64,000 bases of DNA from Fulvia fulva (lineage: Eukaryota; Ascomycota; Dothideomycetes; Mycosphaerellales; Mycosphaerellaceae), in contig NC_063012.1 in NCBI RefSeq assembly GCF_020509005.1, positions 1,736,001 through 1,800,000 of the forward strand, given 5' to 3'. The notes below the pieces were generated by a model. That model was not told the DNA's origin. It ran no database searches and was given only the letters and a program-made list of their open reading frames with translations. The translations under genes were made by a program, and so were the position numbers. Shown piece by piece: positions 4,383 through 63,918 of the stretch (within the stretch, counting starts at the first letter, position 1; every line of letters begins with the position of its first letter).

Positions 4383-4399
4383 TATATACTTTCTATACG

Positions 4400-21834: not shown

Positions 21835-22252
21835 TAGGAACGCTTATATACCCTTTAGGTTAGTTAGAGCCTCTTAGCTTTAGATACATTCTAGCTTATC
21901 GGGGTCTATTTTAATACCTTCTAGCGTAATAATTAGGCCTAGGTATTTGACTCTCTACTAATAGAATTCGTATTTGTTAATATCTACGGTCAACCCGGTA
22001 TCGCGTAGTTTTATCAAAATCTTCGTTACGTACTCGATATACTCTTCGAGTATATCGCTAAAAACTAGTATATTATCTAGGTATACCGACACGAAGTCGT
22101 TAAGGTGTTCCTATAGCACACTATTAATATATAACTAAAACGATACCGGGCCGTTATATAGACTAAACGGTAAGACTAGACATTCGTATACTCCGTACCG
22201 CGTAGCGAACGCTATTAGCTATTTATACCCCTCGGTAATATAAAGCTTATTA
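21835..22252 (-). mobile_element. gypsy-3, reverse transcriptase piece (RIPed)
   Basis: This is the minus-strand reverse transcriptase C-terminal part of a third gypsy element, with DFVSVYLDNIL at 22066-22099. Its RNase H and integrase should lie to the left but are missing: the sequence abuts the gypsy-2 LTR at 21834. On the right the frame is interrupted by the intact LINE A; the 14-bp duplication TATAAAGCTTATTA is at 22239-22252 and 27224-27237. Confidence 0.8.
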
Positions 22253-22426
22253 GATAGATAGATTTGTCATTCCCCTGTTCTAGGACCCTATCCGGCCTAT
22301 GCAGGTATATATCTATTGTTATGTACAAAGGGAAACCCGAATAGGTGAAAACCCTTCCCGCCCCCGACTACTCCTTGTCTAGATTAGCTTTCCCTCTGAA
22401 CGTACGTAGTCCATGTCACTACCCCG

Positions 22427-25400: not shown

Positions 25401-25744
25401 ATGTATAGGTTGTGTATCCAGGTGCTACCCACGTGGAGGGAGGTAATATCGCCCCCGCCTTCTTCGTCTGCGTAGTACACTACCTCCCAGTCGGATTCTA
25501 GTATGTCCTTGCTGACATAGAAGCACGTGCGGGGTCTGCCGTCGCCTCGTAGGCATGTCGTGTAGCCTGGTGACTTGCAGGTCGTTGGTCTCTTATAGTG
25601 CGGGTTAATCCATGGCTCCTGGATTGCAAGGACGTGGTGGACGCGCGGGTCCGCCTCGTGTAGGAAATGGTTCTGGACTATATCCTTGCTATGGTTGACG
25701 TTATACTGGATGATGCTAAGCGTGTCGAGGCTAGTCATCGGCAT
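22427..25744 (-). CDS. LINE A ORF2: endonuclease-reverse transcriptase
   Basis: This encodes a protein of about 1105 residues that nicks target DNA and copies the LINE RNA onto it. Numbering is from the open-frame start at 25750. The N-terminal AP-type endonuclease shows IIQYNVN, AIQEPWIN, VVGDFNIHHPSW and, near residue 224, ASSDHMP. Reverse transcriptase follows: KAPGPDGIPNELLKK, SYRPIALLNTLGK, GIPQGSTLAPILF and the catalytic FVDD at 688-691. A zinc-like SCPCGY...H...C motif lies near 1022-1040. I see no RNase H motif between them. I chose the ATG at 25742-25744; a second ATG at 25736-25738 gives ATGACTAG, overlapping the ORF1 stop, so reinitiation after ORF1 is likely. Confidence 0.95.
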   Translation of the reverse strand: MPMTSLDTLSIIQYNVNHSKDIVQNHFLHEADPRVHHVLAIQEPWINPHYKRPTTCKSPGYTTCLRGDGRPRTCFYVSKDILESDWEVVYYADEEGGGDITSLHVGSTWIHNLYMQPPASRSSRDLGVCRHLDSALKRQGCHIVVGDFNIHHPSWESLMQPHPIADEVLDLMASNAIALNTPKDLGTWKRGGLQGTIDLSWISDSHYHTVTYCGIEHELEASSDHMPVRTSIATQIQRTPARTPKPNWGKAHWANIQAYLDDSKRLVQIAQQQYNSKDEIDEAVQGLTDEIRKATSLHVPLAQPTTWSKPYWTPECTAVVREARRARRVWTSSHSEEAWNVYREACQQKKAIIRREKAVGWRATVEEIAGKPERMWKLAKWARQDPTQGPSFSIPALQSPSGPVSDPEAKARLLASKFFPPPVEADLSDINSSTPLAPSIAVQQEVSEGEVTAVLRKLPAKKAPGPDGIPNELLKKCRDQLAPAVAAIFNACLQTGYHPIAFKQSTTVVLRKPQKEDYTQVKSYRPIALLNTLGKALEKLVATRLSEAAEEHSLLPDTQMGARPQRSTLSAMELITSQVKAIWYKNRDKVASLLSLDISGAFDYVSHPRLLYILRSKGLPEWLVNFVRSYLQNRSTSILVGQYRSPFQAVHTGIPQGSTLAPILFLFFMATLLPALESQNTAASGFVDDTNILAWSSSTEENCRLLEEKHKICEDWARRHGARFAPEKYNLIHFTRRPRFHNMQASIQIQGHTTNPANQLRILGLWVDPALRWRKHVQAILRKAEQNMASCQRLTASTWGADFRQSRLLYTAIVRPVLTYGSQVWSLGERACPSKGLVAPLAKIQNQCLRKVTGAYKSTPTRMLEHETAIPPIDLYIQGLRTSYLGKSAQYPVQKVIASAVARARESVPAHKGIRPGNEPNYRARDEQLATQWEGEKSFVEQLWKERWNNQVVGHSGRPQPAGQPKEWSATKSAVKHPPKLIHYRLTRAQSSIATQLRSEHIGLQGYLSWRKVPGYTNTSCPCGYRSQNVRHALLVCPRWSLGRGEWMVKARNRTIGALLNNAEDLRRITNWILEKGWLEQYRLVGAVQEERTRRCATRPARSGG

Positions 25745-27008
25745 CGACAATCATTTCCTCTGTATCGTCCTGTGTCCTACTGCCCTGTGCGTCCTGGTCT
25801 ACGCCTATCGGCTGTGTACTAAAGGGGAGCCGGGCCTGGTTAGATTCCCTCGCCGCAGCTAGCAGAGCACGTGGCCTCCCGTACGCCCTAGGCTGCGCAT
25901 CCTTTACATCGTTCTCGGCCCTAGGGCGCTTGTGCCCGACCGCCGCTAGTTGGTTCCGGTGTGGGCTAGCCTCACGGTCGCCGTAGAATCTTGGGGCGAC
26001 GGTTCTGTTTGTGATTGCCTTGTTTTTCGCTAGTTTCCGCTGTGGGCATTCCGCACTATACGATGGGTGGTGCCCCGGACAGTTCGCGCACCGTCTCGTA
26101 GTCGATGTACAGTCCCTAGACATATGGTCTCCTGCACAGTTCGAGCAGGCCTGCTTGTTTGTGCACGTGTAGGTTTGGTGTCCATACTGTTGGCATTTGA
26201 AGCATTGGAGGACACGAAAGGATGAGGAGTGCTTTTCTACTGTCTTGAGGCTGTATTGCCAGACCAGGCCTTGTTCTATCGCTAGATCCGCCGCTTTCGC
26301 GTCTTGTAGCCATACTATTAGCGCCGAGGCCTTCTTGCCTTCTGGCCATTTCCTATGGAGCCAAGTCGCCTTCTGGATTGGAGAGTTAAGAGTGACCGGG
26401 TTGTCCTCTTGGAGAGCGCGTAGGTGACCCTGGTTGGTTGGGTCAAACTCCTTAGGCATGTCGTGGACTAGGATCGTGAATTGTTTCGTTGAGACCTTCG
26501 CTGATGCCGCAACCTTAGATGCCCACTGTGGCTGTGCCTCTAGGTGCCTCCTAGCAGTAGCAGAGCTAGTATAGATCTGTAGGGTGCCGTTAGACTGTTG
26601 GTTCACTGCGACCACCCCTGGTTGGTTAATTCGTTGGGCGAGCTCCTTGTTCGATAGCTTCGCAACTTCGGCCTGGTCTTCCTTTGCTGCAATGCGGATC
26701 GTAACTGCATCGTGCGTTGGGCGGGGGCCTGGTATCGATGCCGCGACCGATGCCCAGCTATGGGGGTGTTGATTCCGGGTGGCCTTGCTAATCGCCTGGG
26801 ACGTCGTCCTCATTTCTTGTTGCCCTCGGTGATACGACAGTACAAGCGCCGTGCGTAGCTGAGTGATCATTACCTGTAGAGACCGGTAAGGGAGCTGATC
26901 GTTAGATTCCATGCTTTTTGCGTCCTCTATAAGTTGCTGCCAGTTGTCTTGGGGGGGCTTCGCCTGTAGGGCCGTAGGCGCCGTTAGTACCGTAGCCTGG
27001 GCTGCCAT
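25731..27008 (-). CDS. LINE A ORF1: gag-like RNA-binding protein
   Basis: This is a 425-residue protein expected to coat the LINE RNA in a ribonucleoprotein particle. It begins MAAQATVLTA at the first ATG. The N-terminal 250 residues are polar and Q-rich and contain HSWASVAA near residue 83, a W-A-x-VA motif also seen in the other two families here. Three zinc knuckles follow: C269-C272-H277-C282, C288-C291-H295-C300 and C307-C310-H314-C321. The C-terminus is basic, then acidic (DDTEEMIVDADD). Its TAG stop at 25731-25733 lies 2 nt after an ORF2 ATG, so the two frames are coupled. Confidence 0.94.
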   Translation of the reverse strand: MAAQATVLTAPTALQAKPPQDNWQQLIEDAKSMESNDQLPYRSLQVMITQLRTALVLSYHRGQQEMRTTSQAISKATRNQHPHSWASVAASIPGPRPTHDAVTIRIAAKEDQAEVAKLSNKELAQRINQPGVVAVNQQSNGTLQIYTSSATARRHLEAQPQWASKVAASAKVSTKQFTILVHDMPKEFDPTNQGHLRALQEDNPVTLNSPIQKATWLHRKWPEGKKASALIVWLQDAKAADLAIEQGLVWQYSLKTVEKHSSSFRVLQCFKCQQYGHQTYTCTNKQACSNCAGDHMSRDCTSTTRRCANCPGHHPSYSAECPQRKLAKNKAITNRTVAPRFYGDREASPHRNQLAAVGHKRPRAENDVKDAQPRAYGRPRALLAAARESNQARLPFSTQPIGVDQDAQGSRTQDDTEEMIVDADD

Positions 27009-27223
27009 TGCCTAGGAGTTGCCTAATGTAGCTAGGCACCTCCGCGGCGTTTGGAGCTGAAGAAACAGGGTGAAGAGAGCTTCAAGCTGTCCAGATTGAA
27101 TGGGGTAGAACTCCCTCAGTCCTAGGGGCAGTGGCCTGCTTTTTATATCGTTGGAATGGCCTTGATAAGAGCTTTCGAATGTGTCGTGTTTTGGCGCAGA
27201 GATCGATGATTCCGTCAATACTC

Positions 27224-36069: not shown

Positions 36070-36408
36070 GGAGAGCGGAATATCGACGAGGACTATTTAT
36101 TTAATAGCCCTTATTAAGACGAGTAATCTACTTAAGTAGTAGCGACCCGTCTACGCTAGCGGCGGCGTAATCGTAGTATAAAGAACCCTAAAACTAAGGT
36201 TCCGTTCCCCTAAAGGTAGACCCTAGAGTTACGGAGTTACGGAGGATAACTACCTAATTAGAAAGCGCGACCTTACCCCGAATAGTAGCGAAGAATAGTA
36301 ACTAAGGAGAGCTATAGCCTTACGAACATTCTATACTAAGAGCTAAACCGGGGAACAAACTAAGAAAAAACCTAGGATATAAGCTAAGGCCTACTATATA
36401 GAAAGCAG
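36070..36408 (+). mobile_element. B-old piece 1: LINE B 5' UTR and ORF1 start, RIPed
   Basis: This is the 5' end of the ancient RIPed LINE B copy whose remainder lies at 40436, 46182, 58134 and 63919. It aligns with 41070-41399 of the intact LINE B, but with CA read as TA and TG as TA. ORF1's ATG region is at about 36279. The last 15 bases (36394-36408, CTATATAGAAAGCAG) recur at 40436-40450 and are the target duplication of the composite insertion. The exact 5' boundary near 36054-36070 is uncertain. Confidence 0.88.
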
Positions 36409-37486
36409 GGTCGACGACGAGAATCACCTGTACGTGGTGTCGGCTACGAACCTCTCGTCTAGCTACGAGAGAGCCAAGTATTCTCACGCTGGAGCGTCGT
36501 GGGCGCGACGGGCGCGCAACGTAGGCGAAGCCGCGGCGAACAGAGGACTACCAGCAAAACGGGTATGAAAACCATCCGACGAGCGTGTACTCGTGTCGGG
36601 AGCGAGTCCCTCTTCTTTCTACGTGTAAGAAGGGCGCGGAACCGTGGCCTATACGCTCGACAGGACACCTCTGGTATGAGTGCAGAATTTTCACCCCCGG
36701 AGACCGCAAACCGAGCGGGCTGAGCGACGAACATTGGACGAGCGGACTACAGAACAACAACTGAGCGGACTATGCAACGGCGTCGAGCGGACTACGAAAC
36801 AATCTGGTGTTTGCCAGCGGGCAATGCGGTGGGTAGGTGGACACGCGACGAAGCCTGTAAGGGCCTGTTGAACACCCGGTATGGGAACGAGGGTTTTGCC
36901 TGAGGCACTGCCTGTCCCGCTACACAACGCACCTAGTCTGACATGGTAGATTGCGACGAGGAAAAGACGATAGCCTGAGCAAGGAAAAGACGGCTGTTAG
37001 GACGGGGAAAAGACGTACAATGCAAGTGGATTAGTTCTGTGATCGGGGAGGATCGAGGGCAGGGTGATAAGGAACTTCATATTGGTTAGTAGGTGGAAAC
37101 GCAAGGAGTACGCTGCCCGGCGTGGTGTGTGCCCCGAGCAAACCTGCGAGGCATGGACGGCCGCTTTCTAGAGATAGGCTGCGGTAACGCGAAGGGCGTC
37201 AAAACCTGGGGCGTGGTGTACACTGGCAGCGACGGCTGACACTGTCTGTACAGCCCGAGAGGACGGATGCGCATGTCGGTCAATAGAGAGCACTAAAGGG
37301 CTTAGGCCTATGGAGGTGGATATTGGCTTAAGGAGCAAACAGGGAGGGAGGGCGTAGAGGGAAGCTTTTGCTCCGGGCTAACCTCTCGAAACGAGGCTAC
37401 ACGGTGGTGCTAGATGAGTGGGAAAGCGCGGTTAAGACTTGTCACCTTATCTCGTAGCTAGCTTGCTAAATACGATTCCTTCCTTG
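36409..37486 (+). other. Non-LINE 5' part of the composite (WEIRD-like position)
   Basis: This is 1078 bp of unrecognised CpG-rich sequence without RIP damage. The longest frames are under 95 codons and overlap on both strands, so I call none. It holds three copies of GAGCGGACTA (36740, 36763, 36785) and three of GGAAAAGACG (36960, 36983, 37006), each spaced 22-23 nt. A perfect hairpin CTCTCGT/ACGAGAG lies at 36452-36471. It may derive from a host or noncoding transcript. Its origin cannot be told from this window. Confidence 0.7.
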
Positions 37487-40262
37487 CCCGAAGGACCTGG
37501 GCACCTGGAAGAGAGGGGGACTCCAAGGCACGATCGACCTCTCCTGGATCTCAGATAGCCACTACCACACGGTAACCTACTGTGGGATCGAACATGAACT
37601 CGAGGCGTCGTCAGACCACATGCCAGTCAGGACCTCTATTGCGACACAGATACAACGCACACCAGCGAGAACCCCTAAGCCAAACTGGGGAAAGGCCCAC
37701 TGGGCCAACATCCAGGCGTACCTCGATGACTCCAAGAGGCTAGTCCAGATCGCGCAGCAGCAATACAACAGTAAAGACGAGATAGACGAAGCAGTCCAGG
37801 GGTTGACAGACGAAATAAGAAAAGCGACCTCACTCCACGTTCCGCTTGCCCAACCAACGACATGGTCCAAACCATACTGGACGCCGGAGTGCACTGCGGT
37901 AGTAAGAGAAGCAAGGAGAGCCCGCCGGGTGTGGACGAGCAGCCATAGCGAGGAGGCCTGGAACGTATACAGGGAGGCATGCCAACAGAAGAAAGCCATA
38001 ATACGGAGGGAGAAAGCAGTCGGCTGGAGGGCCACAGTGGAAGAAATCGCCGGCAAGCCAGAGAGGATGTGGAAGCTAGCGAAATGGGCCCGACAGGACC
38101 CTACACAGGGCCCCTCCTTCTCTATCCCAGCGCTACAATCGCCTAGTGGCCCGGTTAGCGACCCCGAGGCCAAGGCGCGTCTACTGGCTAGCAAGTTCTT
38201 CCCACCCCCAGTCGAGGCTGATCTAAGCGACATAAACAGCTCTACTCCCCTAGCCCCTAGCATCGCGGTCCAACAGGAGGTGTCCGAGGGAGAAGTTACC
38301 GCTGTGCTGAGGAAGTTGCCGGCGAAGAAAGCCCCGGGGCCGGATGGGATCCCAAACGAGCTACTAAAGAAGTGTAGAGATCAACTAGCCCCAGCAGTTG
38401 CAGCGATCTTCAACGCCTGCCTACAGACCGGATACCACCCGATAGCTTTTAAACAATCGACGACAGTGGTCCTACGCAAGCCGCAGAAGGAAGACTATAC
38501 GCAGGTGAAGTCGTACCGCCCAATTGCGCTCCTTAACACTCTTGGGAAGGCGCTTGAGAAGCTGGTTGCAACGAGACTCTCCGAGGCGGCAGAGGAACAC
38601 TCCCTACTCCCGGACACCCAGATGGGTGCGCGCCCACAGCGATCGACGCTATCCGCGATGGAACTTATCACCTCTCAGGTAAAGGCCATCTGGTATAAGA
38701 ATAGGGACAAGGTGGCTTCCTTACTTAGCCTAGACATATCGGGAGCCTTCGACTACGTGTCACACCCGCGGCTTCTCTACATCCTAAGGTCGAAAGGACT
38801 CCCTGAGTGGCTTGTCAACTTCGTACGGTCCTACCTCCAAAACCGCAGTACGTCGATCCTGGTCGGCCAGTACAGAAGCCCATTTCAAGCAGTCCACACT
38901 GGAATCCCGCAAGGCTCAACGCTAGCACCTATTCTGTTCCTCTTCTTTATGGCGACGCTGCTCCCAGCCCTAGAATCCCAGAACACCGCTGCGAGCGGCT
39001 TCGTAGACGACACAAACATCCTAGCGTGGTCTTCCTCGACTGAGGAGAACTGTAGGCTACTAGAAGAGAAGCACAAGATCTGCGAGGACTGGGCTAGGAG
39101 GCACGGGGCTCGGTTTGCCCCAGAAAAGTACAATCTGATACACTTTACGCGCCGGCCACGGTTCCACAATATGCAAGCTTCTATCCAGATACAGGGGCAC
39201 ACGACTAACCCGGCAAATCAGCTCAGGATCCTCGGACTATGGGTGGACCCGGCGCTACGGTGGAGGAAGCACGTACAGGCAATATTACGGAAAGCTGAAC
39301 AGAATATGGCATCATGCCAGAGGCTCACTGCGTCCACATGGGGGGCGGACTTCCGGCAGTCACGACTTCTATATACGGCTATTGTACGGCCAGTCCTTAC
39401 CTATGGCAGCCAAGTGTGGTCCTTAGGCGAGAGGGCCTGCCCATCGAAGGGACTCGTCGCGCCGCTAGCGAAGATCCAAAACCAATGCCTAAGGAAGGTC
39501 ACCGGGGCATATAAGTCGACACCAACGAGGATGCTTGAGCACGAGACCGCTATACCGCCGATCGACCTATACATCCAGGGACTACGGACCTCCTACTTAG
39601 GCAAGTCGGCACAGTACCCAGTACAGAAGGTCATCGCCAGTGCAGTCGCAAGGGCCCGCGAATCAGTACCAGCGCATAAGGGCATTCGACCCGGAAACGA
39701 GCCGAACTACCGGGCAAGGGACGAACAGCTAGCAACACAATGGGAAGGTGAGAAATCGTTTGTAGAGCAACTATGGAAAGAGAGGTGGAACAACCAGGTT
39801 GTAGGGCATAGTGGACGCCCTCAGCCAGCGGGACAACCTAAGGAATGGTCAGCTACAAAATCCGCGGTCAAGCACCCCCCGAAGCTCATCCACTACCGCC
39901 TTACGAGGGCACAGAGTAGCATAGCAACCCAACTGCGAAGCGAACACATCGGCCTCCAGGGGTACCTATCATGGAGGAAGGTCCCAGGATACACGAATAC
40001 TAGCTGCCCCTGCGGCTATCGCTCCCAGAACGTACGGCACGCACTCCTCGTCTGTCCGAGGTGGTCGCTAGGAAGGGGGGAGTGGATGGCAAAGGCGAGG
40101 AACCGGACGATTGGGGCACTTCTTAACAACGCTGAAGACCTACGGCGCATTACGAACTGGATACTAGAGAAGGGCTGGCTAGAACAGTACCGCCTAGTAG
40201 GAGCAGTGCAGGAAGAGAGGACACGACGCAGCGCGACGAGACCGGCTAGGAGCGGGGGCTAA
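37487..40262 (+). pseudogene. 5'-truncated LINE A ORF2 (reverse transcriptase without endonuclease)
   Basis: LINE homology begins at 37487 within the CCCGAAGG shared with the intact copy, where the ORF2 codons P-K-D-L-G-T-W begin. The first in-frame ATG is at 37620 and would give 880 residues, identical to residues 228-1107 of the intact ORF2 apart from two changes. Reverse transcriptase is complete, with FVDD at 39000-39011, and so is the C-terminal CxCGY...H...C motif. The endonuclease catalytic residues upstream of SSDH are lost and ORF1 is absent. It is not RIPed. It could make an endonuclease-free reverse transcriptase if transcribed, but is most likely dead on arrival. Confidence 0.9.
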
Positions 40263-40435
40263 CGGGGTAGTGACATGGACTACGTACGTTCAGAGGGAAA
40301 GCTAATCTAGACAAGGAGTAGTCGGGGGCGGGAAGGGTTTTCACCTATTCGGGTTTCCCTTTGTACATAACAATAGATATATACCTGCATAGGCCGGATA
40401 GGGTCCTAGAACAGGGGAATGACAAATCTATCTAT

Positions 40436-41053
40436 CTATATAGAAAGCAGAGGCTACCGACTAATAATATAGCGTAGACGACCCTATATACGGAGGCGGA
40501 AAACTTACTAGGGGATAATAAACACCTAGCCCGGATATATAAGAATACTATAGTATAGCTACTAGGAGCGCTAAAAGCGCTATTATACGAAATCCCGAAG
40601 ACAATCTAATAAGTAATATAGAAGGTAGCCTAGAGACTAACTATATAGGCAATAGTAGTAGTAGGTAAGAATTAACCCCCTCCGAAGGTAAGTTAGGCGG
40701 TACGCCTATATATTACTAATCCGGCGGAGAAACAAGAAATCGTAGCTCTAATAAGTAAAGAGATTGTCGATAGAATTGGCTAAAAGGAGGTAGTTAGAGC
40801 GAGGGTAGAGGTAATAGGCGTAGTGAGACTCTTTACCGTATAAGAGTCTAATAGACGAAAGCTAGAGACCTATAAGGAGTAGACTACTAAAGTCGCGAAG
40901 TCGGTACGAGTCTCCTACTAATAGTATACCGTTATCGCCTACGGGGTCCCTAGGACATTTAAGGTCGAAGACCTTCCCTACCTCTAAGTATAGAACTAGA
41001 ACACCTCCCTAGGAGTACGACTAATAATAGCGATATAGCTATATAAGATAGTA
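40436..41053 (+). mobile_element. B-old piece 2: LINE B ORF1 middle, RIPed
   Basis: This continues B-old ORF1 from the YRKQRPTT region to RLTKAAWLHKTV. It starts with the right copy of the composite's target duplication. It ends with CTATATAAGATAGTA (41039-41053), which recurs at 46182-46196 and flanks the intact LINE B. RIP stops are frequent. Confidence 0.9.
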
Positions 41054-41284
41054 AGAGCACTCTTTCGGGTACTAGGACGAGGACCATTCAATCGATAGCC
41101 CTTATCAAGACGAGCAATCTACTCAAGCAGTAGCGACCCGCCTGCGCTGGCGGCGGCGCAATTGTGATACAAAAAAAAACCCCCAAAACCGAGGTCCCCT
41201 TCCCCTGAAGGCAGACCCTAGAATTGCGGAGTTGCGGAGGACAACTGCCCAATTAGGAAGCGCGACCCCGAACAACAGCGAAGG

Positions 41285-42634
41285 ATGGCAACCAACGAGA
41301 GCCATAGCCTTGCGAACATTCTGCACCAAGAGTCAAACCGGGGAACAAACCAAGAAAAAACCCAGGACACAAGCCAAGGCCCACTATACAGAAAGCAGAG
41401 GCCAACGACAAACAACACAGCGTGGACGACCCTATATACGGAGGCGGAGAACTTACTAGGGGATGACGAACACCCAGCCCGGGCATATAAGAACACCATA
41501 GCACAGCTACTAGGAGCGCTAAAAGCGCTATCATACCAAATCCCGAAGACAATCCAACAAGTAACACAGAAGGCAGCCCAGAAACCAACTACATGGGCAA
41601 CAGTAGCAGCAGGCAAGAATCAACCCCCTCCGAAGGAAAGTAAGGCGGTACGCCTATACATTACTGATCCGGCGGAGAAACAAGAAATCGCAGCCCTAAC
41701 AAGCAAGGAGATTGTCGACAGAATCGGCCAAAAGGAGGTAGTTGGGGCGAGGGTAGAAGCAACAGGCGTAGTAAGACTCTTTACCGCACAAGAGTCTGAT
41801 AGACGAAAGCTGGAGACCTATAAGGAGTGGACTACTAAAGTCGCGAAGTCGGCACGAGTCTCCCACCAACAGTATACCGTCATCGCCCACGGGGTCCCTA
41901 GGACATTCAAGGTCGAAGACCTTCCCCACCTCCAAGTACAGAACCAGAACACCTCCCCAGGAGTACGACTAACGAAGGCGGCATGGCTGCACAAGACAGT
42001 AGACCGAGAAAAGACGCATTCATCGCTTATTATTTGGGTAGAGACAGCGGAACAAGCTAACCAGATATTAGACAATGGGCTATTCTGGAACTGCGAGAGA
42101 ATGGACACGGAGATCCATCAGAGCAGCCATAGGGTACTACAATGCTTCCAATGCCAACAGTACGGTCACATAGCCTCAAAATGCGGGGAGAAGACCCCAA
42201 GGTGTCCTCACTGCGCAGGCCCACACCAGGGAAGGGAATGCCCAAAAAAGGAGAGCAGGTGCGCATGCTGCGGCAGAAGGCACCCAGCGTATTCAAGCCA
42301 ATGCCCGGCTAGAATAGCAGCACAAGAACGAGCGAGACAAGCAAGGATCTCTACACCAGCTAGGTACCCCCAACGACAACAGGAGGGACCTACCGTGTAC
42401 AAGGGCTTCGAGCCGAGCAAAAGGAAGAGGGCAGAAGAGACGAACAAGGGAACCCAACCGCAAACGCATCCACCTCCCGGTCGGCCTCGACACCTTAACC
42501 GGGCAGCCAACGAACTAGGCCAAATGCGAATCTTTGGGGCGCCCCAGCGGCCCCAGGGCCAGCCGGACAGCGAGATACAGGCTCAGGAGACACAGCAGGT
42601 CAGCACAGAAATGGACCTCACGGATAACGAATGA
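41285..42634 (+). CDS. LINE B ORF1: gag-like RNA-binding protein
   Basis: This is a 449-residue protein, the ribonucleoprotein partner of ORF2. The N-terminal part is rich in Q, K and T with a PTTWATVAAG motif near residue 101. Three zinc knuckles follow: C287-C290-H295-C300, C307-C310-H314-C319 and C326/C329-H333-C340. The tail is basic and proline-rich, ending in a short acidic stretch (EMDLTDNE). It has the same architecture as LINE A and LINE C ORF1. Its TGA stop (42632-42634) overlaps the ORF2 ATG as ATGA. Confidence 0.95.
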   Translation: MATNESHSLANILHQESNRGTNQEKTQDTSQGPLYRKQRPTTNNTAWTTLYTEAENLLGDDEHPARAYKNTIAQLLGALKALSYQIPKTIQQVTQKAAQKPTTWATVAAGKNQPPPKESKAVRLYITDPAEKQEIAALTSKEIVDRIGQKEVVGARVEATGVVRLFTAQESDRRKLETYKEWTTKVAKSARVSHQQYTVIAHGVPRTFKVEDLPHLQVQNQNTSPGVRLTKAAWLHKTVDREKTHSSLIIWVETAEQANQILDNGLFWNCERMDTEIHQSSHRVLQCFQCQQYGHIASKCGEKTPRCPHCAGPHQGRECPKKESRCACCGRRHPAYSSQCPARIAAQERARQARISTPARYPQRQQEGPTVYKGFEPSKRKRAEETNKGTQPQTHPPPGRPRHLNRAANELGQMRIFGAPQRPQGQPDSEIQAQETQQVSTEMDLTDNE

Positions 42635-45600
42635 TACTATACGACGACATCACTATCGTACAGTACAACGTAAACAAAAGTAGGGACAAGGTCCAGCGCC
42701 ACTTTCTACAAGAGCTAGACCCGCTACGGCACCACGTTATTGCGGTACAGGAACCATGGATCAACCCCTACGTAGGACTCCCAGCCACTTGTAATGACCG
42801 GAGATACCACACCGTAATCGCGGGCCAACGAGGCGTCATCCCGAGGACATGTATATACGTAAGCAAGACTATAGACCTTGAGTCGTGGAAGGTTATACTA
42901 CCGCAGCAGGGCAACCTAGGAGACATAACATCAATCCAGATCGACACGACACAAGGCCCTATCCAGATCCATAACGTTTACAACCCGCCACCGCGGGGTC
43001 GGACGAGTAGGGAACTAGGAACCCTCGCCCACCTAGAGCGGACCCTAAGCCAAGACACGAAGCAAGTACTCCTCGGCGACTTCAACCTCCACCACCCACA
43101 GTGGGGACTCGAATTCACTCCCCCGCACGCATTTCTAGGGGGGAAGCTACTGGACATAACCGCACGCTACGGAATGGCCTTAGTAACACCAAAGGGAACA
43201 GAGACGTGGAAGGCCCGTACTAGTGCAAGCACGATCGACCTATGCTTTCTATCACGAGAACTTGAAGAGAGACTAGTCCAATGCCGACCGAACTACGCGC
43301 TAGAAGCCTCCTCAGACCATATCCCTATCCAAACGACGCTAGGGGTGAAGGCGATAGAGGAGCCAGCAAACGAACCACGCCGTAACTGGAAGAAGGCACG
43401 CTGGGACGACATAAGAGGCTTCCTAATAGCGAACCTACCACAGCATAGAGAACTCGAGACGACAGCTCAGCTAGATCAAGCAGCGGAACAGATTACCTCG
43501 GTCATATGGCAAGCAGCGGAACAATACACGCCGTTACTCCGGCCCTCAACGCAGCAGAAGGCCTTCTGGACCCCTGAATGCTCTACGAAGGTAAGGGAGG
43601 CTAGAAGGGCAAGGCGACAGTGGACGAAGGAGCACACCCAAGAGACGTGGGAGCAATACTGCCACGCGACACAAGAGAAGAAGGCACAGATAAGACGCGA
43701 TAAGCTGCAGGACTGGAGAGCGACGATCGGGCTCGTTACAGAAAACCCGGAACAGATGTGGAGACTTGCTAAATGGGCACGACTACCTGAAGAGCAACAA
43801 GCCCCTCACTTCCCCCCAATCGTAGACCGCGAAGGGATTGCCCAGGCTACGCCCCGGGGCAAGGCAAAAGCGTTAGCCGACCATTTCTTTTCGACGCAAG
43901 TAGAGGCAGACCTTACGGACATCGACCCGAGCACATACCCGGAACCCCTGGACATGGATTGGGCGGTTAGCCCTAACACAGTAACAGGAGTCATAAGTAA
44001 GCTAAAGGGACGAAAAGCCCCAGGCCCAGACAGGATACCAAACGTACTGCTAAAAGAGTGTAGAGAAGAGATCGCGCCGAGCCTTGCAAACCTATTTACC
44101 GCGTGCCTACGGCTAGGGTATCACCCGAAGCCGTACAGAGAGTCTATGACAGTAGTGCTACGCAAGCCACAGAAGGAAGACTATACTCAGCCCAAGTCGT
44201 ACAGACCAATAGCACTTCTAAATACGATAGGGAAGGTCCTAGAAAAGATAGTAGCCCAGAGACTTACGCAGCTTGCCGAGGACAACCACGTACTCCCAGC
44301 AACACAGATGGGGGGAAGAAGCCAGCGATCGACACTAACAGCAATGGAGCTAATTACGGAGCAAATCCAGACCCTCTGGCACTACGGCAGGAACCGAGCG
44401 GCGTCCTTACTATCCCTCGACATCGCAGGGGCCTTCGACAACGTCTCACACCAAAGGCTAATACATATCCTACAGCAGAAAGGCATCCCCCAGTGGGCAA
44501 CGTCGTTCGTCTTCTCCTTTCTCCAGGAACGGACGACATACCTAGTCCTAGGAAGGTACACGTCCGACCCGGTGAAGGCAGAGACTGGAATACCTCAGGG
44601 ATCTACTCTCTCCCCTATCCTGTTTCTAATATTTATGTCGGATCTAATCCCCCTACTCACCTCTCCGCAAACCTCAGCATCGGGGTTCGTAGACGATACA
44701 AACATCCTAGCCTGGTCAGACTCGACAGAAGAGAACTGTCGCCTCCTTGAAGATAGGCACAAGAAATGCGAGGAGTGGGCAAAGAAGCATGGTGCCCGGT
44801 TCGCCCCTGAAAAGTACCAACTTATACACTTCAGTAAAGCGAGAACACACCATAATATGAAGGCGGCGGTAAGAATCCAAGGCTACGAGACCAAGCCATC
44901 AGCGGAGCTACGAGTACTAGGGATCTGGCTCGACCCGAAGCTAAGCTGGAATGTACAGATTAAGAAAGCCCAGAGTCGAGCGCAAGTCAATGAAGCCTCG
45001 ATAAAGAGGCTTACGGCATCTACATGGGGAGCAACATTCGACAAGGCAAGAGTAATGTATAAGGCGATCGTCAGACCAGCTATGTTGTACGGGGCACAGA
45101 TTTGGGGAACAGGAGGCGCAGGCAAGCCGATCCCGAAACGGATAGAGCAACCCCTAAACAGGACACAGGCAGGCAACCTACGTAGGGTACTAGGCGCATA
45201 CAAGACAACGTCAACAAGCACGGTAGAAATGGAGACAGGAATACCACCAATCGGCCAGTACATCCGGGGAATGAGAATTCAATACGCGGCAAAGACGACA
45301 GGTTACCTAGCACAAACCACGATCCAGGAGGCAAAGAATAAGATAGAAAGCCGCTACCGGAGAGGGGCAGGATATAGGACAAGCCAAAAAGAGGATGACC
45401 TTACGACCTTTACGGCCGTACAGGCAAGCACCGAATGGCTAGCACGAAAGGAGGAGGAGCGTAGGACTCGCCAGGCCGGCGGGAGCAAGGCTAAGACCCA
45501 AAACCTAGCGGAACAGATAGCGAGCTGCCTATGGGAGCAGGACTGGAAAAGGAAGCCCCCTAAGACAACAGGCCCGATAGCGCTCCGAGCCTTCCAGAGA

Positions 45601-45984
45601 CACAATTACCAGCTATATAGGGACCTGACAAGGGCCGAAGCAAGCATAGCGATCCAAATCAGGTCCGAACACATTGGATTAAGGGCCTACCTGTTCAGAA
45701 GACGCGCACTAGACATCTATAGCCCAGCCTGCCAGTGTGGCTACCCATCGCAAAACCCAGAACATATGCTACTACGATGCCCGCAGTGGGCGAGAGGCAG
45801 GGGAAATTGGAGGCACCAAGCGGGAAGGAGAGACTACAAGTCAATTATTAGGGACAAAGGCAACATTCGCCGAATCTCTCGGTGGATACTACAGCAGGGA
45901 TACCTCCAGCAGTTTAGCCTCGCGAGCGAGACGGAGGAGTGGATAGACAAGAGGCGGAAGCGAGGGGGGTTGCAGATAGGGTAG
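42631..45984 (+). CDS. LINE B ORF2: endonuclease-reverse transcriptase
   Basis: This is an 1117-residue protein. The endonuclease domain shows IVQYNVNKS, AVQEPWIN, LLGDFNLHHPQW near residue 150 and SSDHIPIQ near 229. Reverse transcriptase has KAPGPDRIPNVLLKE, KSYRPIALLNTIGK, SLDIAGAFDNVSH, GIPQGSTLSPILF and FVDD at 686-689. A linker rich in Q, K and R follows, then LTRAEASIAIQIRSEHIGLRAYL and the zinc-like CQCGY...H...C near 1033-1050. No RNase H motif is visible. The ATG at 42631 overlaps the ORF1 stop by 4 nt, so translation probably restarts there. Confidence 0.95.
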   Translation: MILYDDITIVQYNVNKSRDKVQRHFLQELDPLRHHVIAVQEPWINPYVGLPATCNDRRYHTVIAGQRGVIPRTCIYVSKTIDLESWKVILPQQGNLGDITSIQIDTTQGPIQIHNVYNPPPRGRTSRELGTLAHLERTLSQDTKQVLLGDFNLHHPQWGLEFTPPHAFLGGKLLDITARYGMALVTPKGTETWKARTSASTIDLCFLSRELEERLVQCRPNYALEASSDHIPIQTTLGVKAIEEPANEPRRNWKKARWDDIRGFLIANLPQHRELETTAQLDQAAEQITSVIWQAAEQYTPLLRPSTQQKAFWTPECSTKVREARRARRQWTKEHTQETWEQYCHATQEKKAQIRRDKLQDWRATIGLVTENPEQMWRLAKWARLPEEQQAPHFPPIVDREGIAQATPRGKAKALADHFFSTQVEADLTDIDPSTYPEPLDMDWAVSPNTVTGVISKLKGRKAPGPDRIPNVLLKECREEIAPSLANLFTACLRLGYHPKPYRESMTVVLRKPQKEDYTQPKSYRPIALLNTIGKVLEKIVAQRLTQLAEDNHVLPATQMGGRSQRSTLTAMELITEQIQTLWHYGRNRAASLLSLDIAGAFDNVSHQRLIHILQQKGIPQWATSFVFSFLQERTTYLVLGRYTSDPVKAETGIPQGSTLSPILFLIFMSDLIPLLTSPQTSASGFVDDTNILAWSDSTEENCRLLEDRHKKCEEWAKKHGARFAPEKYQLIHFSKARTHHNMKAAVRIQGYETKPSAELRVLGIWLDPKLSWNVQIKKAQSRAQVNEASIKRLTASTWGATFDKARVMYKAIVRPAMLYGAQIWGTGGAGKPIPKRIEQPLNRTQAGNLRRVLGAYKTTSTSTVEMETGIPPIGQYIRGMRIQYAAKTTGYLAQTTIQEAKNKIESRYRRGAGYRTSQKEDDLTTFTAVQASTEWLARKEEERRTRQAGGSKAKTQNLAEQIASCLWEQDWKRKPPKTTGPIALRAFQRHNYQLYRDLTRAEASIAIQIRSEHIGLRAYLFRRRALDIYSPACQCGYPSQNPEHMLLRCPQWARGRGNWRHQAGRRDYKSIIRDKGNIRRISRWILQQGYLQQFSLASETEEWIDKRRKRGGLQIG

Positions 45985-46181
45985 TCATCAGGGCAGGCCC
46001 ATGACACTAGCGTACCCCTAACAAGGGAAATTTAAGACGACAACGAGGAGGAAAAGACAGGCGGGAAGGAGGAGGGGTTTTCACCAACACGGTTTCCCCT
46101 CTATATATACAAAAACAAGATAGCATAGCTGCATAGGCCAAAGGGCACTACAACAGCTTAATGAAATATCTATCTATCTAT

Positions 46182-46831
46182 CTATATAAGATAGTAGACC
46201 GAGAGAAGACGTATTTATCGCTTATTATCTAGGTAGAGACAGCGGAACAAACTAACTAGATACTAGATAAGAGGCTATTCTAGAACTACGAGAGAATAGA
46301 CACGGAGATCTATTAGAGTAGCTATAGGGTACTATAATGCTTCTAATACTAACAGTACGGTCATATCGCCCTAAAATACGGGGAGAAGACCCTAAGGTAT
46401 CCCTACTACGTAGGCCTATACTAGGGAAGGGAATGCCTAAAAAAGGAGAGTAGGTATATATACTACGGTAGAAGGCACCTAGCGTATTCAAACTAATACC
46501 TAGCTAGAATAGTAGTATAAGAACGAGCGAGATAAGTAAGGATCTCTATACTAGCTAGGTACCCCTAACGATAGTAGGAGGGACCTACCGGATATAAGGG
46601 CTTAGAGCCGAGTAAAAGGAAGAGGGTAGAAGAGACGAATAAGGAAATCTAACCGTAAACGTATCTACCTCCCGGTAGGCCTCGACACCTTGACCGGGCC
46701 GCTAACGAACTAGGCTAAATATAAATCTTTAGAGCGCCCTAGCGGCCCTAGGGCTAGCCGGACAGCGGGATATAGGCTTAGGAGATATAGTAGGTTAGTA
46801 CGGAAATAGACCTTACGGATAACGAATAATA
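46182..46831 (+). mobile_element. B-old piece 3: LINE B ORF1 3' end, RIPed
   Basis: This resumes B-old ORF1 at LHKTVDREK and runs to its stop region. It begins with the right target duplication of the intact LINE B. It ends with GATAACGAATAATA (46818-46831), repeated at 58134-58147 around the RIPed LINE A. The 79-codon antisense frame at 46252-46491 is a shadow, identical to the one at 8904-9143 because the two regions are duplicates. Confidence 0.9.
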
Positions 46832-47509
46832 GATAGATAGATAGATAGATTTGTTATTCTCCTATTCTAGGACCCTATTCGGTCTATATAGATATATATC
46901 TATTATTATATATAAAGGAAAACCCGAATAGGTAAAAACCCTTCCCGCCCCCGGCCTCTCCTTATCTAGATTAGCTTTCCCTCTAAACGTACGTAGTCTA
47001 TATTACTACCCCGTTAGCCCCCGCTCCTAGCCGGTCTCGTCGCGCTACGCCGTGTCCTCTCTTCCTATACTACTCCTACTAGGCGGTACTGTTCTAGCTA
47101 GCCCTTCTCTAGTATCTAGTTCGTAATACGCCGTAGGTCCTTAACGTTATTAAGAAGTGCCCTAATCGTCCGGTTCCTCGCCTTTACTATCTACTCCCCC
47201 CTTCCTAGCGACTACCTCGGATAGACGAGGAGTACGTACCGTATATTCTAGGAGTAATAGCCGTAGGGGTAGCTAGTATTCGTATATTCTAGAACCTTCC
47301 TCTATAATAGGTATCTCTAGAGGCCGATGTGTTCGCTTTATAGTTAGGTTACTATACTACTCTATACCCTCGTAAGGCGGTAGTAGATAAGCTTCGGGGG
47401 GTACTTGACCGCGGATTTCGTAGCTAACTATTCCTTAGGTTATCCTACTAGCTAAGGGCGTCTACTATGCCTATAACCTAGTTGTTCTACCTCTCTTTCT
47501 ATAGTTACT
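46832..47509 (-). mobile_element. RIPed LINE A in B-old, 3' part
   Basis: This is the 3' end of a full-length minus-strand LINE A: (TATC)n tail at 46832-46850, 3' UTR, and the ORF2 C-terminus back to the gypsy insertion. RIP damage is strong. The element resumes at 53801 after the intact gypsy. The last 6 bp (47504-47509, GTTACT) are the gypsy target duplication. Confidence 0.92.
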
Positions 47510-48029
47510 TGTCATGGTCTCCCCACAGAGTGTACAGAAGGTGGGGACAGAAGAGCCTCAGAGTGCTCAGAAGTCGTCAAGAAGTGACAGTCCAGCTTGG
47601 TGTGTGAGCACCAAGAATCACATGCCCCGCAACATTCACTACGGGACCCAGCCCTCCAAATTCACCCCTCTACCAAACCTTGACAGATTCACTTCGGCTC
47701 GTGACTGTGTGACTCACGGCACTCCCGCGAGCACCCGCGACTGCGCTGGACCCTGGAAGAAGCACGTGGAAGACTCGGAACGTAGGGCAGGTTGGAATAA
47801 GGTTTTGAGCAAAGCTGCTGAGCGCGGCTTCGCACGGGTTAGCCCTGTTGATGCGGGGACACGCACTCGCGAGGGTCGCGTATAAATATCTGGCCTTCCC
47901 CAGGCCTCTCTTGCTTTCTTCGTCTTTTGTTTTGTGTAGCAATCATACCATACCCTTTTGCATCTGCACTTCGCACCTGCATTCTCGCTTTCACCCTTGC
48001 ATCTCACAGGCCAGGCTCTCGCCCTGACA
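47510..48029 (+). repeat. gypsy-4 5' LTR
   Basis: This is a 520-bp LTR with TG...CA ends. It holds a candidate TATA box, TATAAATA, at 47881-47888; transcription would start about 30-40 bp downstream. A 123-codon open frame (47514-47885) is the LTR copy of the pol C-terminus and is not expected to be translated here. Confidence 0.95.
47881..47888 (+). promoter_or_regulatory. Putative TATA box of the gypsy-4 LTR promoter
   Basis: TATAAATA is the only TATA-like motif I see in the LTR and lies 149 bp before its end, a plausible U3/R position. The same motif in the 3' LTR (53652-53659) contains the pol stop codon TAA. Confidence 0.6.
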
Positions 48030-48040
48030 TCACAAAAGAC
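48030..48040 (+). promoter_or_regulatory. Candidate primer-binding site, possibly self-primed
   Basis: The bases right after the LTR (TCACAAAAGAC) do not start with the TGG expected for a tRNA primer. ACAAAAGAC at 48032-48040 is exactly complementary to GTCTTTTGT at 47922-47930, close to where the transcript should begin. Tf1/sushi-type elements prime from their own RNA 5' end in this way. The role is inferred. Confidence 0.45.
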
Positions 48041-48071
48041 CAACAAACCGTCAACCACTCGAGTCATCCTC

Positions 48072-49232
48072 ATGGGTGACCACGCCACCGATAGAGGTGT
48101 CAACCTCGACAACCAAGACACTCCATTCCACTTCAGTGAGTGGACTGACATCCCCTTCTCGAACGCCGCTGCCTTCGGTGCCTGGGCAAACGCCAACCCC
48201 GACACCGCCTACGCTCTCATCAACCGCACCGTCTCCTCTTTCCGCGAGACCGCCCAGCAGGTCGAGCAAGCAAACAACCAAGCAACATACCTTCAAGGTA
48301 TTGTGAACACCTTCCAGAACCTCGCCCCGCACGCCGACGACAACCGCCGCCAGCACTTCTCCAAGAAGGTCAACGACCCAGACGAGTTCGACGGCAACAA
48401 GAGCAAGTTTGAGGCATTTGAGACACAGCTCACCATCAAGCTGTTGGCTAATGCCGACCACTTTCCGCAAGAGAAGGACAAAGTCACGTACGTCTTCTCC
48501 CTCCTTCGGGGAGACGCCGCGGCTCAGGTACAACACTACATCGACAACGCCACGCAGACTATCGGCTGCCCGGACGTCCTCACCTTGATGCAGGACCTCC
48601 GTGCTGCCTTTGGTGATCCAGACCGTAGAGCCACCGCCCAGAACGCCATCCACAACCTCCTCCAGAAGAACAAGAGCTTCGCCGAGTACCTCGCGGCCTT
48701 CAACCGCGACATCGGGTTCACCGGCTACAACGAAGAGACCAAGAAGAGCACTCTCCGCCGTGGTTTGTCAGCAGAGCTTCTTCGAGCCCTCGAGGACAAG
48801 GACGTCGGTGCTATGAGCTTCCGTGAGCTCGTCGAGACCTGCCAGCGCCTCGACTCCAACATGAAACACACCGCCTCTCTCCTCGCTTCCCGTTCTCAAG
48901 GTCGTCAGCCTCGTGGTCCCGGAAGCCACTTCGCTGCTCCACTAGGCGCCGCCGCTCCTACGGCTCTCCCTCCCGTCTCTGTAGGTGACGCTATGGATCT
49001 CAGCGCTGGTGCCGCCGTCCCTCGAGTCCAGGGCCTCGTCAACGGTAAGCTCACTCCCGAAGAGAAGCTTCGCCGTCGCCAGGCCGGACTCTGCACCTAC
49101 TGCGGCGGTCCAGGCCACATCGCAGCCAACTGTCCGCAGCTCGCTGCCCGTAACGCCCGCAACCCGGTTCGCGGCGCTGTCGGCGCTATCGAGCCTGCTC
49201 CTGCTGCTCCCGCTGAGCAGGGAAAAGCCTAG
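48072..49232 (+). CDS. gag: gypsy-4 Gag (capsid and nucleocapsid)
   Basis: This is a 386-residue structural protein that packages the element RNA. The first ATG after the LTR is at 48072 (MGDHATDRGV); the frame is open further upstream but has no ATG there. The middle matches retrotransposon gag: KFEAFETQLTIKLL, then DKVTYVFSLLRGDAAAQ and FAEYLAAFNRDIGFTGYNEE. One CCHC zinc knuckle, C341-TYC344-GGPGH349-IAANC354, binds RNA. The C-terminus is rich in A and P. The stop TAG (49230-49232) lies inside the frameshift signal. A -1 slip just before it makes Gag-Pol. Confidence 0.94.
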   Translation: MGDHATDRGVNLDNQDTPFHFSEWTDIPFSNAAAFGAWANANPDTAYALINRTVSSFRETAQQVEQANNQATYLQGIVNTFQNLAPHADDNRRQHFSKKVNDPDEFDGNKSKFEAFETQLTIKLLANADHFPQEKDKVTYVFSLLRGDAAAQVQHYIDNATQTIGCPDVLTLMQDLRAAFGDPDRRATAQNAIHNLLQKNKSFAEYLAAFNRDIGFTGYNEETKKSTLRRGLSAELLRALEDKDVGAMSFRELVETCQRLDSNMKHTASLLASRSQGRQPRGPGSHFAAPLGAAAPTALPPVSVGDAMDLSAGAAVPRVQGLVNGKLTPEEKLRRRQAGLCTYCGGPGHIAANCPQLAARNARNPVRGAVGAIEPAPAAPAEQGKA

Positions 49233-49259
49233 GTCTTCCTCATCGACGCGATGAAGACC
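49220..49259 (+). promoter_or_regulatory. Programmed -1 ribosomal frameshift signal at the gag-pol junction
   Basis: The slippery heptamer GGGAAAA (49220-49226) is in the gag frame as G GGA AAA. A 5-nt spacer follows (49227-49231). Then a stem-loop: GGTCTTC (49232-49238) pairs with GAAGACC (49253-49259), a 3-nt bulge follows, and ATCG (49242-49245) pairs with CGAT (49249-49252) around an ACG loop. A -1 slip leads exactly into the open pol frame, and the gag TAG sits in the spacer and stem base. Confidence 0.85.
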
Positions 49260-52200
49260 AAGAACAACGTTTACCGAAAGTGAAGAGAGGAAAGAAGTTG
49301 AGGATCAATACAGCACAGCTAGACCTGTACGACGAGACGGGCAAGGACCACGCTTGCAAACCGTTCGTCACGAATGTCAATATCGGCTCAAAGAAACTCT
49401 CTTCTTCCAATCTCACTCTCATGGACACTGGCGCACTAGGCGAGTCTTTTATGGACTATAAACTCGCGACCTCTCTCAACCTCGAACCCCAGGAACTGAA
49501 GTACCCTCGCACCCTTGAACTCTTTGACGGCACGGAGACTACCACTGGTAAGATTACTCATGTTGTACACACGTCAATCACCCTCGGAGGCAAGCGTATG
49601 TCGATCACTAGCTTCCTTACGTCCCTACCGCATCAGAAGTTTATCCTCGGCCTCCCCTGGTTCAGACGACACCGACCTATCATCGACTGGACTTCCCTTA
49701 CTGTCAGCTTCCCTCCAGAAGTTCCTCCGGCACCTCCGCCTTCTCCGCCGCCTCAGCGCGGTCCTGAGTATACCAAGATCTTCCAGGTGAACGCCGCTGC
49801 CTTCACCACTGCTGCTAAGCAGCCCAAAGCTCAAGTCTTCGCCGCCTCTCTCCGCGATATCGACATCGCCCTCGAGAAGCTCGACAAGAAGCGTACACCT
49901 ACCGACCCTGCTACGAAGGTCCCTCCTTGGGCACACCACATCCTCCACGTATTCGATGCTAAAGCCGCAGACGAGCTGCCTCCTCATCGCCCTCACGACC
50001 ACAAGATTGAGCTAGAAGAAGGTGCAGAGACACCGTTCGGACCGTTATATTCCATGTCCCGAGAAGAGCTTATCGTCCTCAAGAGATACCTCGAAGAGAA
50101 CCTAAAGAAGGGGTTCATTCGAGCGAGCCGTTCCAGCGCTGGCAGTCCCGTCATGTTCGTCAAGAAGCCCGGCGGTGGTCTACGCTTCTGCGTAGACTAC
50201 CGAGGCTTGAACGCTGTTACAAAGAAGAACCGCTACCCAATACCGTTGATTCAGGAGACGCTCGAGCGCCTCTCTAAGGCCAAGTACTTCACCAAGCTCG
50301 ATGTCATCGCTGCGTTCAACAAGTTACGAATGGCAGAAGGACACGAGTATCTCACAGCCTTCCGTACTCGCTACGGGCTGTTCGAGTCGCTCGTTATGCC
50401 CTTCGGCGTTTGTAACGGGCCTAGTACCTTCCAGAACTTCATTAACGACATCCTTCAGGAGTTCCTCGATCAGTTCTGCACTGCCTACATCGACGACATC
50501 CTAGTCTACAGCGAGACCAAGGAGGAGCACCGCGAGCACGTCTGTAAGGTCCTTCAGAAGCTCGCAGACGCCGGCTTGCAGCTCGACATCGACAAGTGCG
50601 AGTTTGAGAAGACCGAAGTCAAGTTCCTTGGTTTGATCATTACCGCAGACGGCATCAAGATGGACCAAGAGAAGATCGACGCTATCGTCGAATGGGATGC
50701 TCCTACGAACGTCAAAGAGGTCCAGGGTTTCCTAGGCTTTGCCAACTTTTACCGCCGCTTCATCCACGCATTTTCGGGCGTGGTACGCCCTTTGACGAAG
50801 CTCACGCGCAAGGGTGAGAAGTTCGCCTGGACCGACGAATGCCAGGAGGCTTTTGACTTGCTCAAAGCGAAGTTTGTTGAGAACCCGCTTCTACGGCACT
50901 TCGATTTCGAACTGGAGACCCGTGTAGAGACCGACGCATCCGACGGCGTGGTGGGCGGTGTCCTGCTACAACGCCGCTCGCCTGAATCCCCCTGGTTACC
51001 TGTCGCCTTCCTCTCCAAGAAGATGACCGCTACGGAGTGTAACTACGAGATCTACGACAAGGAGCTTCTCGCCATCGTCAAAGCTTTCGAAGAGTGGCGC
51101 CCCGAGCTCGAAGGCTCTGCTATGCCCGTCCAAGTAAGCTCCGACCATAAGAACCTCGTCTACTTTATGAAGAGCAAGCTGCTCAATCGTCGCCAGGCCC
51201 GCTGGAGCGAGTTCCTCTCCCGGTTCAACTTCGTGATCTCGTACACGCCCGGCAAGGCCAACTCGATGGCCGACGCCCTTACCCGCCGCCCTGGTGACTC
51301 TCCAGTTGATCGAAGAGGGGGCCGGCAAATCGCAGGGCAACAAGTCATCAAAGAGCACAACCTCTCTTCCGAGCTTCGAGAGTACCTATCGAATGGCCAG
51401 CCTACGCTCGCCGCTTCCTTTGCTACTCTCGTGCTCGCTCCTGCCTACCTTGACGAGAGTGACGATGAATCCGAGCCTGAAGAATACGCCTCGGACGCTG
51501 AGGACTTGAACGACGATGAAGAGGGCTCAGTAACGACCGACGGCTCATCCGAATCAGACTTTGAGGGGTTTGATAATGAGGAGCAGCCCGAAGGCATCAT
51601 GGCACGAGTACGAACAGCGTACGATGCCGACATAGACGCCCAAGAGTTAGTTCAGGCCCTTGAATCTGGCGCGAGGACATTCCCGGGCTTCTCGCTGTCC
51701 GAGTGCGAGCTCCAGGAAGGTGTCGTCTACTTCCGTAAGAAGCTTTACGTACCGCAGCCCGAAGGCTCTAATATCCGAGCTGAGATTCTTCAAATCATCC
51801 ACGACTCCGCCTCTGGGGGTCACCCAGGCGTAGCAAAGACCCACAAGCTCCTCGCTAGGTATTACTGGTGGCCGCATTCCTGGAAGGACGTCCGCCGCTA
51901 CGTGCTGAACTGCGCTGCTTGCCGAAGAGCCAAAGCTAACCGCCACCGTCCCCACGGTCTCTTGCACCCTCTCCCGGCTCCTGATCGTCCGTGGAAGCAC
52001 ATCACTATGGACTTTATCACCGATCTTCCTCACGGCAAGACCTTCAGCGGCGTGAAAGCAAAGGCCCTTCTAGTGATCGTGGACCGTCACTCTAAGGACC
52101 GGTACATGATCCCGTGCTGGAGCATGACCGCAAAGGAGACTGCTCGCTTGTTCTACGAATTCGTCTGGCGCTTTCAAGGCCTCCCGGATAGCATCACCTC

Positions 52201-53656: not shown

Positions 53657-53800
53657 ATATCTGGCCTTCCCCAGGCCTCTCTTGCTTTCTTCGTCTTTTG
53701 TTTTGTGTAGCAATCATACCATACCCTTTTGCATCTGCACTTCGCACCTGCATTCTCGCTTTCACCCTTGCATCTCACAGGCCAGGCTCTCGCCCTGACA
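53281..53800 (+). repeat. gypsy-4 3' LTR
   Basis: This is a 520-bp LTR reading the same as 47510-48029. Its first 376 bp are translated as the C-terminus of Pol. It is followed by GTTACT (53801-53806), the right target duplication. Confidence 0.95.
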
Positions 53801-59020: not shown

Positions 59021-59214
59021 ATAGATAGATGATTCATTTACCCGTTATGGTGCCCTCCGGCCCATGCGGGTTTATGTCTATATATGTTACTGCATAAGGT
59101 AGGAAACCTATTCCTAGGTAAAAACCTCCTCTCCTTCTCTAATAGCTTCCTTGCCATGAGTTCTCAGTTTTCCTTCCATTAGGGTGCACTAGTGTCATAG
59201 TGGTTAGCCTCTGA

Positions 59215-63857: not shown

Positions 63858-63918
63858 CGTGTCACGCCTCTCTTTCCTACTATATAGGGTTCCTCTTTCC
63901 TCTATCTAGGTCCCTATA

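Follow-up and report, generated by a model that had tools for sequence, protein, structure and literature searches.

A noncoding sequence repeatedly joined to 5′-truncated LINEs of at least four families in a fungal genome, in the manner of the MINE chimeras of Magnaporthe

The chimeric fungal elements known as MINEs were reportedly first described by Fudal et al. in 2005. They are fusions of the sequence WEIRD to the LINE MGL in Magnaporthe, of which 31 are presented in a dedicated study (Gogvadze et al., 2007; PMC2104539), the published fungal set of such chimeras standing at 33 (PMC2104539). In the open-access literature searched, by title and the start of the abstract, fungal chimeras of this sort appear only in that study and in PMC3978060; the word "chimeric" is absent from the main text of PMC9453070 and PMC10823647.

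Here, we analyzed a stretch of 64,000 nucleotides (hereinafter the window), which contains a composite retroelement at positions 36409-40435, made up of a 1078-bp segment that we call S and the 3′ part of a LINE (LINE A). The composite and its insertion site comprise the following features:

36085 to 36408, plus strand: left half of the target, an old, diverged LINE B from its position 23 onward (alignment)
36394 to 36408, no strand: 5′ target-site duplication CTATATAGAAAGCAG, with an identical 15 bp at 40436-40450; the empty-site join gives one LINE B alignment
36409 to 37486, plus strand: S segment, full length, noncoding 5′ partner of 1078 bp (genome-wide end counts; Rfam, Pfam and ORF scans)
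37487 to 40435, plus strand: 5′-truncated LINE A from its position 2006 onward, with an (ATCT)n end (99.93% identity to the reverse complement of 22251-27207)
40436 to 40450, no strand: 3′ target-site duplication CTATATAGAAAGCAG, identical to 36394-36408
40451 to 41053, plus strand: right half of the target, the same old LINE B, to its position 948 (alignment)

As an earlier note on this DNA had claimed, the 15-bp duplication encloses both halves of the composite. The flanks, when joined with one copy of the repeat, give a single alignment to LINE B 23-948 (84.5% identity, 9 gap positions in 931), which indicates that the insert entered the old LINE B as a unit and bears out the proposal that S and the LINE A part arrived in one event. 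Window positions 37487-40438 are 99.93% identical to LINE A 2006-4957, as represented by the minus-strand copy at 22251-27207, and include an 880-aa ORF (37620-40262); going by where the Pfam domains lie in the LINE A protein (1107 aa), the truncated LINE A would have retained the reverse transcriptase domain and lost most of the endonuclease domain. At the junction (37487), LINE A reads ...AATAC^CCCGAAGG and S ends in ...CCTTG; where an overlap of 2-3 bp had been suggested, the alignment has no base in common, and zero overlap should hold unless the true end of S has one or two extra C residues. No further match to S was detected inside the window at E 1e-5.

Apart from the target and the composite, the window contains three LINE copies that each have two long ORFs and belong to families that are partners of S:

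22251 to 27207, minus strand: LINE A, the reference for the 3′ half of the composite; duplication TAATAAGCTTTATA slightly beyond both ends
41054 to 46182, plus strand: LINE B, another S partner family; CTATATAAGATAGTA at 41039 and 46182; Pfam reverse transcriptase and endonuclease
59022 to 63918, minus strand: LINE C, another S partner family; 5′ end set by eye from the duplication (ORFs; Pfam)

LINEs A, B and C all possess PF14529, PF03372 and PF00078 and have a first ORF upstream, a layout of the Tad1 clade as judged by domains and ORF order. Together with a fourth family, LINE D, they show about 64-69% mutual identity over the longer alignments. Among organism-named relatives, the LINE B reverse transcriptase has one in Passalora fulva (57% identity over 76%). 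The LINE Tad1 constitutes 16.3% of the genome of Cladosporium fulvum Race 5, whose genome paper places its most abundant LINE family in Tad1 (PMC9453070). The 5′ starts of LINEs A and C differ by tens of bases between copies (window position 27207 on the minus strand; L006, L026, L074 and L152). The window additionally carries a Ty3/gypsy-type LTR element (47510-53800) with gag/pol frames and identical 520-bp LTRs (47510-48029 and 53281-53800), which is nested in an old LINE A (46838-47509 and 53800-58094).

A search of the whole genome (67,169,167 bases, 14 contigs) at up to 2 mismatches recovered 603 3′ ends and 567 5′ ends of S, with no hits for the reversed patterns, making the window copy one of about 600. 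Twenty of 20 chosen copies, from loci fetched long via a zero-mismatch S 3′ end, begin at base 1 of S; taken with the near-equal end counts, this suggests that S copies are almost all complete. An exception is the old S in L017, which starts at position 408 without another S ahead of it. The 3′ end is comparably fixed: in all 532 copies matching the last 31-mer of S (RIP-type variants allowed), base 1078 is G, or A as repeat-induced point mutation (RIP) would give. In 525 of these the G/A is followed by a pyrimidine and in 7 by a purine, with no copy having another base at 1078. The 7 comprise the S-S element L022, five junctions with LINE A or B, and L152, where S is followed by 35 other bases and then by LINE A from position 16. 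Neither a solo S nor a source locus was met among the copies read, which are a minority of the 525 with a following pyrimidine.

S itself appears to be noncoding. Its longest ORF is 91 aa, and a Pfam search with six of its ORFs gave two weak matches, both under the cut-off; the only hit in Rfam (E 2.7) is under its gathering score. Ten 150-base windows, each compared with 40 shuffles, revealed no excess RNA structure (z from -0.75 to 1.39). Pattern scans of S for a Pol III B box, a TATA element and a telomere template were negative; they recovered one A-box-like match (S 237). Without a B box, the SINE-type arrangement of an internal Pol III promoter is lacking. The motif TAAATAC at S 1059, 19 bases from the end, would suit a candidate polyadenylation-type signal. 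Among the full S bodies, 23 have exactly 1078 bases, and 18 of these are >99% identical; these young copies fall into three close variants, which may reflect either several sources or one source that changed. Branching of the variants was rejected as proof of several sources, as three variants can equally be arranged in a line.

In older S copies (L010, L011, L014, L019, L021, L024 and others) the differences are mostly C-T or G-A (e.g., 57 of 63 in L010), the pattern expected of RIP, with the terminal TTG of S becoming TTA. The use of these RIP-type bases as proof that the sources of S are themselves repeats was likewise dropped, because RIP could also strike a single gene that has copies elsewhere. 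Two clusters were also observed: five S 3′ ends on the same strand with an exact spacing of 3318 bases on contig 2 (G000 C2:2705809-2719113), resembling a head-to-tail array of S composites; and S copies about 4.67 kb apart on contig 1 (G000 C1:8826066, 8830733 and 8835404; L035-L037), all at LINE D position 286, perhaps another array.

We then read what follows S at 115 rows of 3′ ends, representing 114 distinct copies, with the window copy being L002. In 106 of the 114, S continues into a LINE (A, 34; B, 45; C, 16; D, 11). The remaining eight lie off the map of LINEs A-D: L006, at the LINE A 5′ end; the outer S of L022 and L079 (S-S); L021, L041, L051 and L080, which have weak LINE-like matches after S; and the old S in L017, which has no match. 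In L006, L026 and L152, S meets LINE A at its 5′ end or slightly ahead of it, so that in some nearly full-length LINEs S would occupy the promoter position. To the S joints we added 20 stretches (19 elements) picked by S variant; the second S of L026 and L074, joined to LINE 5′ ends missing from the LINE library used, were excluded from the breakpoint count. The resulting 128 mapped copies show 5′-truncated LINEs in the same orientation as S with variable breakpoints (73 distinct sites), as is typical of MINE-type chimeras. Likewise, short direct repeats surround the whole chimera, perfect duplications of 11-16 bp enclosing S plus LINE in 21 of the 23 composites tested (19 of 21 composites that were long enough, the window copy and L007); for L019 and the second S of L021 a flanking duplication was not found. 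The 20 duplications tabulated all start with (T)(C)TAT(A/T).

The distribution of S variants over these junctions shows that the fusion recurred independently and that one chimeric master cannot account for the set. Thus, 12 S copies that reach the highest possible bit score, being identical throughout their 1078 bases, occupy 10 junctions in LINEs A, B, C and D, and 12 copies with at most one mismatch to the window S occupy 12 junctions, again in all four LINEs. Conversely, the same nucleotide is joined to different S variants at B3361, B2893, A1577, A4094, B1733 and D3318. The most used junctions are B2893 (8 copies), B3361 (7) and C3179 (6); L009, L023 and L132 have both S variant and junction in common. 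Three elements have the structure S-S-LINE (L022, L079 and L141/L142).

The breakpoints obey a sharp sequence rule. A purine-pyrimidine^pyrimidine (RY^Y) motif is present at 63 of 72 scored LINE sites, compared with 10.2% of LINE positions (P about 1e-52, binomial test), the other nine being YY^Y (6) and RY^R (3). The base at -1 is a pyrimidine at all 72, with two sites re-placed by hand (A2368 to 2369 and A3247 to 3249, where a C run or a RIP-type base misled the aligner) and at all but these two without such re-placing, which reduced the sites from 75 to 73. The one site left unscored is that of L015, for which the library lacks the preceding sequence, and the second entry of the window copy was excluded; an initial count with fewer loci and no re-placing gave 57 of 64. 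The 128 mapped copies on which the rule rests are a non-random set (104 zero-mismatch or best-scoring S hits, 19 chosen by S variant and 5 for a purine as the next base). When S itself is left in the three S-S-LINE elements, this is at AAC^GGCG, GAC^CGCA and AAC^CATC, all after R-Y and two of the three at RY^Y. Predicted folding is not stronger at breakpoints (64 used versus 417 unused R-Y-C-Y sites, p 0.29-0.77); consequently, neither the hairpin idea put forward for MINEs (PMC2104539) nor pausing as a cause finds support here. Spliceosomal trans-splicing was rejected, since all 72 scored sites have a pyrimidine at -1, so that the joint never follows AG.

LINEs truncated without S provide a further comparison. 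Among 94 zero-mismatch LINE B 3′ ends on contig 1, classified by the markers used (5′ marker and S), the 5′ marker lies at full-length distance in 20, S occurs within 5.15 kb upstream in 35, and the remaining 39 show neither. Three of the 39 were read whole: two lack roughly the first 180 and 217 bases of LINE B, and the third, L110, is an S-less copy truncated near LINE B 3425 at a site obeying the RY^Y rule, with a duplication that is imperfect by eye. Another 20 were read in a single 600-base window; LINE B continues in several, many show other sequence, and in L122 an old S end is present. Also among these 20, L131 is an S-less LINE B truncated at 3203, 100% identical there. L010 ends without S at A3599; it has a 15-bp duplication, and two additional bases precede its LINE part. 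S junctions are also known at both B3203 and A3599. The S-less truncation of L019 (A3681) departs from the rule. The proposition that every truncated LINE carries S was accordingly rejected (L110, L010, L131 and L019). In this small sample of S-less truncations compared with the rule (L131, L010, L110, L019 and an old copy at window position 7134), ends at S-used sites suggest that the LINE departure site may be fixed before S joins, with S being a common, not the sole, continuation.

Standing ahead of truncated LINEs of at least four families, S appears to have spread through being copied whenever LINE enzymes abandoned their own RNA at a specific short motif. We regard it as fairly probable that a noncoding S RNA, with both its 5′ and 3′ ends fixed, acts in this genome as an alternative template onto which reverse transcriptases from several LINE families move; we infer that this switch takes place in the course of reverse transcription and that S RNA occurs in free form. 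The likeliest mechanism, ahead of RNA ligation, is template jumping in target-primed reverse transcription. Here, the LINE would open a (T)CTAT(A/T)-type target, and its reverse transcriptase would begin copying its own RNA at the (ATCT)n tail, depart from it at an RY^Y site and resume on S RNA from the 3′ end through the 5′ end, the cDNA of S plus LINE then integrating as a single insertion flanked by a target duplication. Across the mapped copies, the LINE adjoins S without extra bases (except the second S of L026 and L074), and no poly(A) lies between them. Template jumps by reverse transcriptases are usually described as less clean than this, which weakens the case for jumping. By the same token, joints exact at a single S 3′ end, and a rule sharp enough to resemble a cleavage preference, keep in play a prior RNA ligation, whereby LINE RNA would be cut at RY^Y, a tRNA-ligase-type enzyme would attach S RNA to the 5′ end so created, and the chimera would be retrotransposed whole. 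The S-less truncations at sites also used with S (L010 and L131) fit such a cut; however, S-S-LINE copies would require two ligations, the chimeric RNA is putative, and we know of no nuclease with an RY^Y rule. On balance we consider ligation unlikely, while noting that it is an accepted alternative for U6/LINE-1 chimeras (PMC13174262). Thus, with respect to the template jumping by LINE reverse transcriptase that the earlier note had invoked, a LINE-made composite is well supported, and jumping is favored without being separated from prior ligation.

Two other explanations fare worse. If a few S-LINE composites were transcribed from S and copied whole, like SINE-type nonautonomous elements, recurring junctions such as B2893, B3361 and C3179 and the likeness of L009, L023 and L132 would follow naturally; however, the different S variants at six recurring junctions, the identical S at many junctions and the 73 distinct sites among 128 mapped copies make this a very improbable general account, though it may be a partial cause of single junctions. 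That S is the native 5′ region of one LINE might be read from its position ahead of the LINE in nearly all copies read, and from the joints at or close to the start of LINE A, but it is already contradicted: LINE A and B copies with their own duplications lack S (a LINE C copy likewise, by eye), and the joints of S fall at numerous positions inside four LINEs, leaving this reading a negligible probability.

With S as a template for jumping LINE enzymes, at least four LINE families would have captured one RNA about 600 times, at recurrent points exact to the nucleotide and under a near-absolute sequence rule, furnishing independent events numerous enough to ask why a LINE reverse transcriptase quits its template and picks another RNA. 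A noncoding sequence has, moreover, become highly repeated, with none of the copies read so far standing alone. More tentatively, it is possible, though short of probable, that S is a selfish RNA without its own integration or priming signal, multiplying only when enzymes of several LINE families jump onto it; that S copies, rather than a host gene, supply the S RNA; and that a second fungus thus recruited a different sequence to the role of WEIRD under the same R-Y-Y rule. Should S copies feed the S RNA, S would be a retro-parasite living solely on template jumps.

Like S, SVA and SINE-type nonautonomous elements are noncoding sequences mobilized by LINE enzymes; unlike them, S lacks its own LINE-like 3′ terminus, a constant 3′ half and a Pol III B box. 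The U6 snRNA/LINE-1 chimeras of mammals resemble S-LINE in having a full-length RNA at the LINE 5′ end, in sense orientation and with target duplications (PMC13174262), whereas S is kilobase-long, corresponds to no known RNA and lies upstream of 35 of the 94 LINE B 3′ ends on contig 1. The closest parallel is MINE, and the likeness drawn in the earlier note extends to many features: both have a noncoding, full-length 5′ part of about 1.1 kb, a 5′-truncated LINE 3′ part on the same strand, target duplications, recurrent breakpoints and multi-part chimeras, with no solo 5′ part found. In our own count, R-Y-Y also stands just upstream of the site in 17 of 18 rows of representative MINE sites (Table 3 of PMC2104539), the S-LINE joint being one base further 5′ in this motif. 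MINE breakpoints have been linked to hairpins, whereas folding is not stronger at those of S-LINE. On the earlier question of WEIRD versus a new partner, the two published WEIRD primer sites compared (PMC3978060) have best sense matches of only 11/20 each in S (shuffled means 11.6 and 11.7), and the MNR2 primer, which may belong to WEIRD or MGL, has none. Judged at these two sites, the 5′ part is not WEIRD and S is probably another partner, though it could yet be a diverged relative. Thus, S-LINE is a MINE-type system that differs from its Magnaporthe counterpart in scale, with about 600 S ends against 31 MINEs (PMC2104539), and in breadth, S being joined to four LINE families and WEIRD to one LINE and a SINE.
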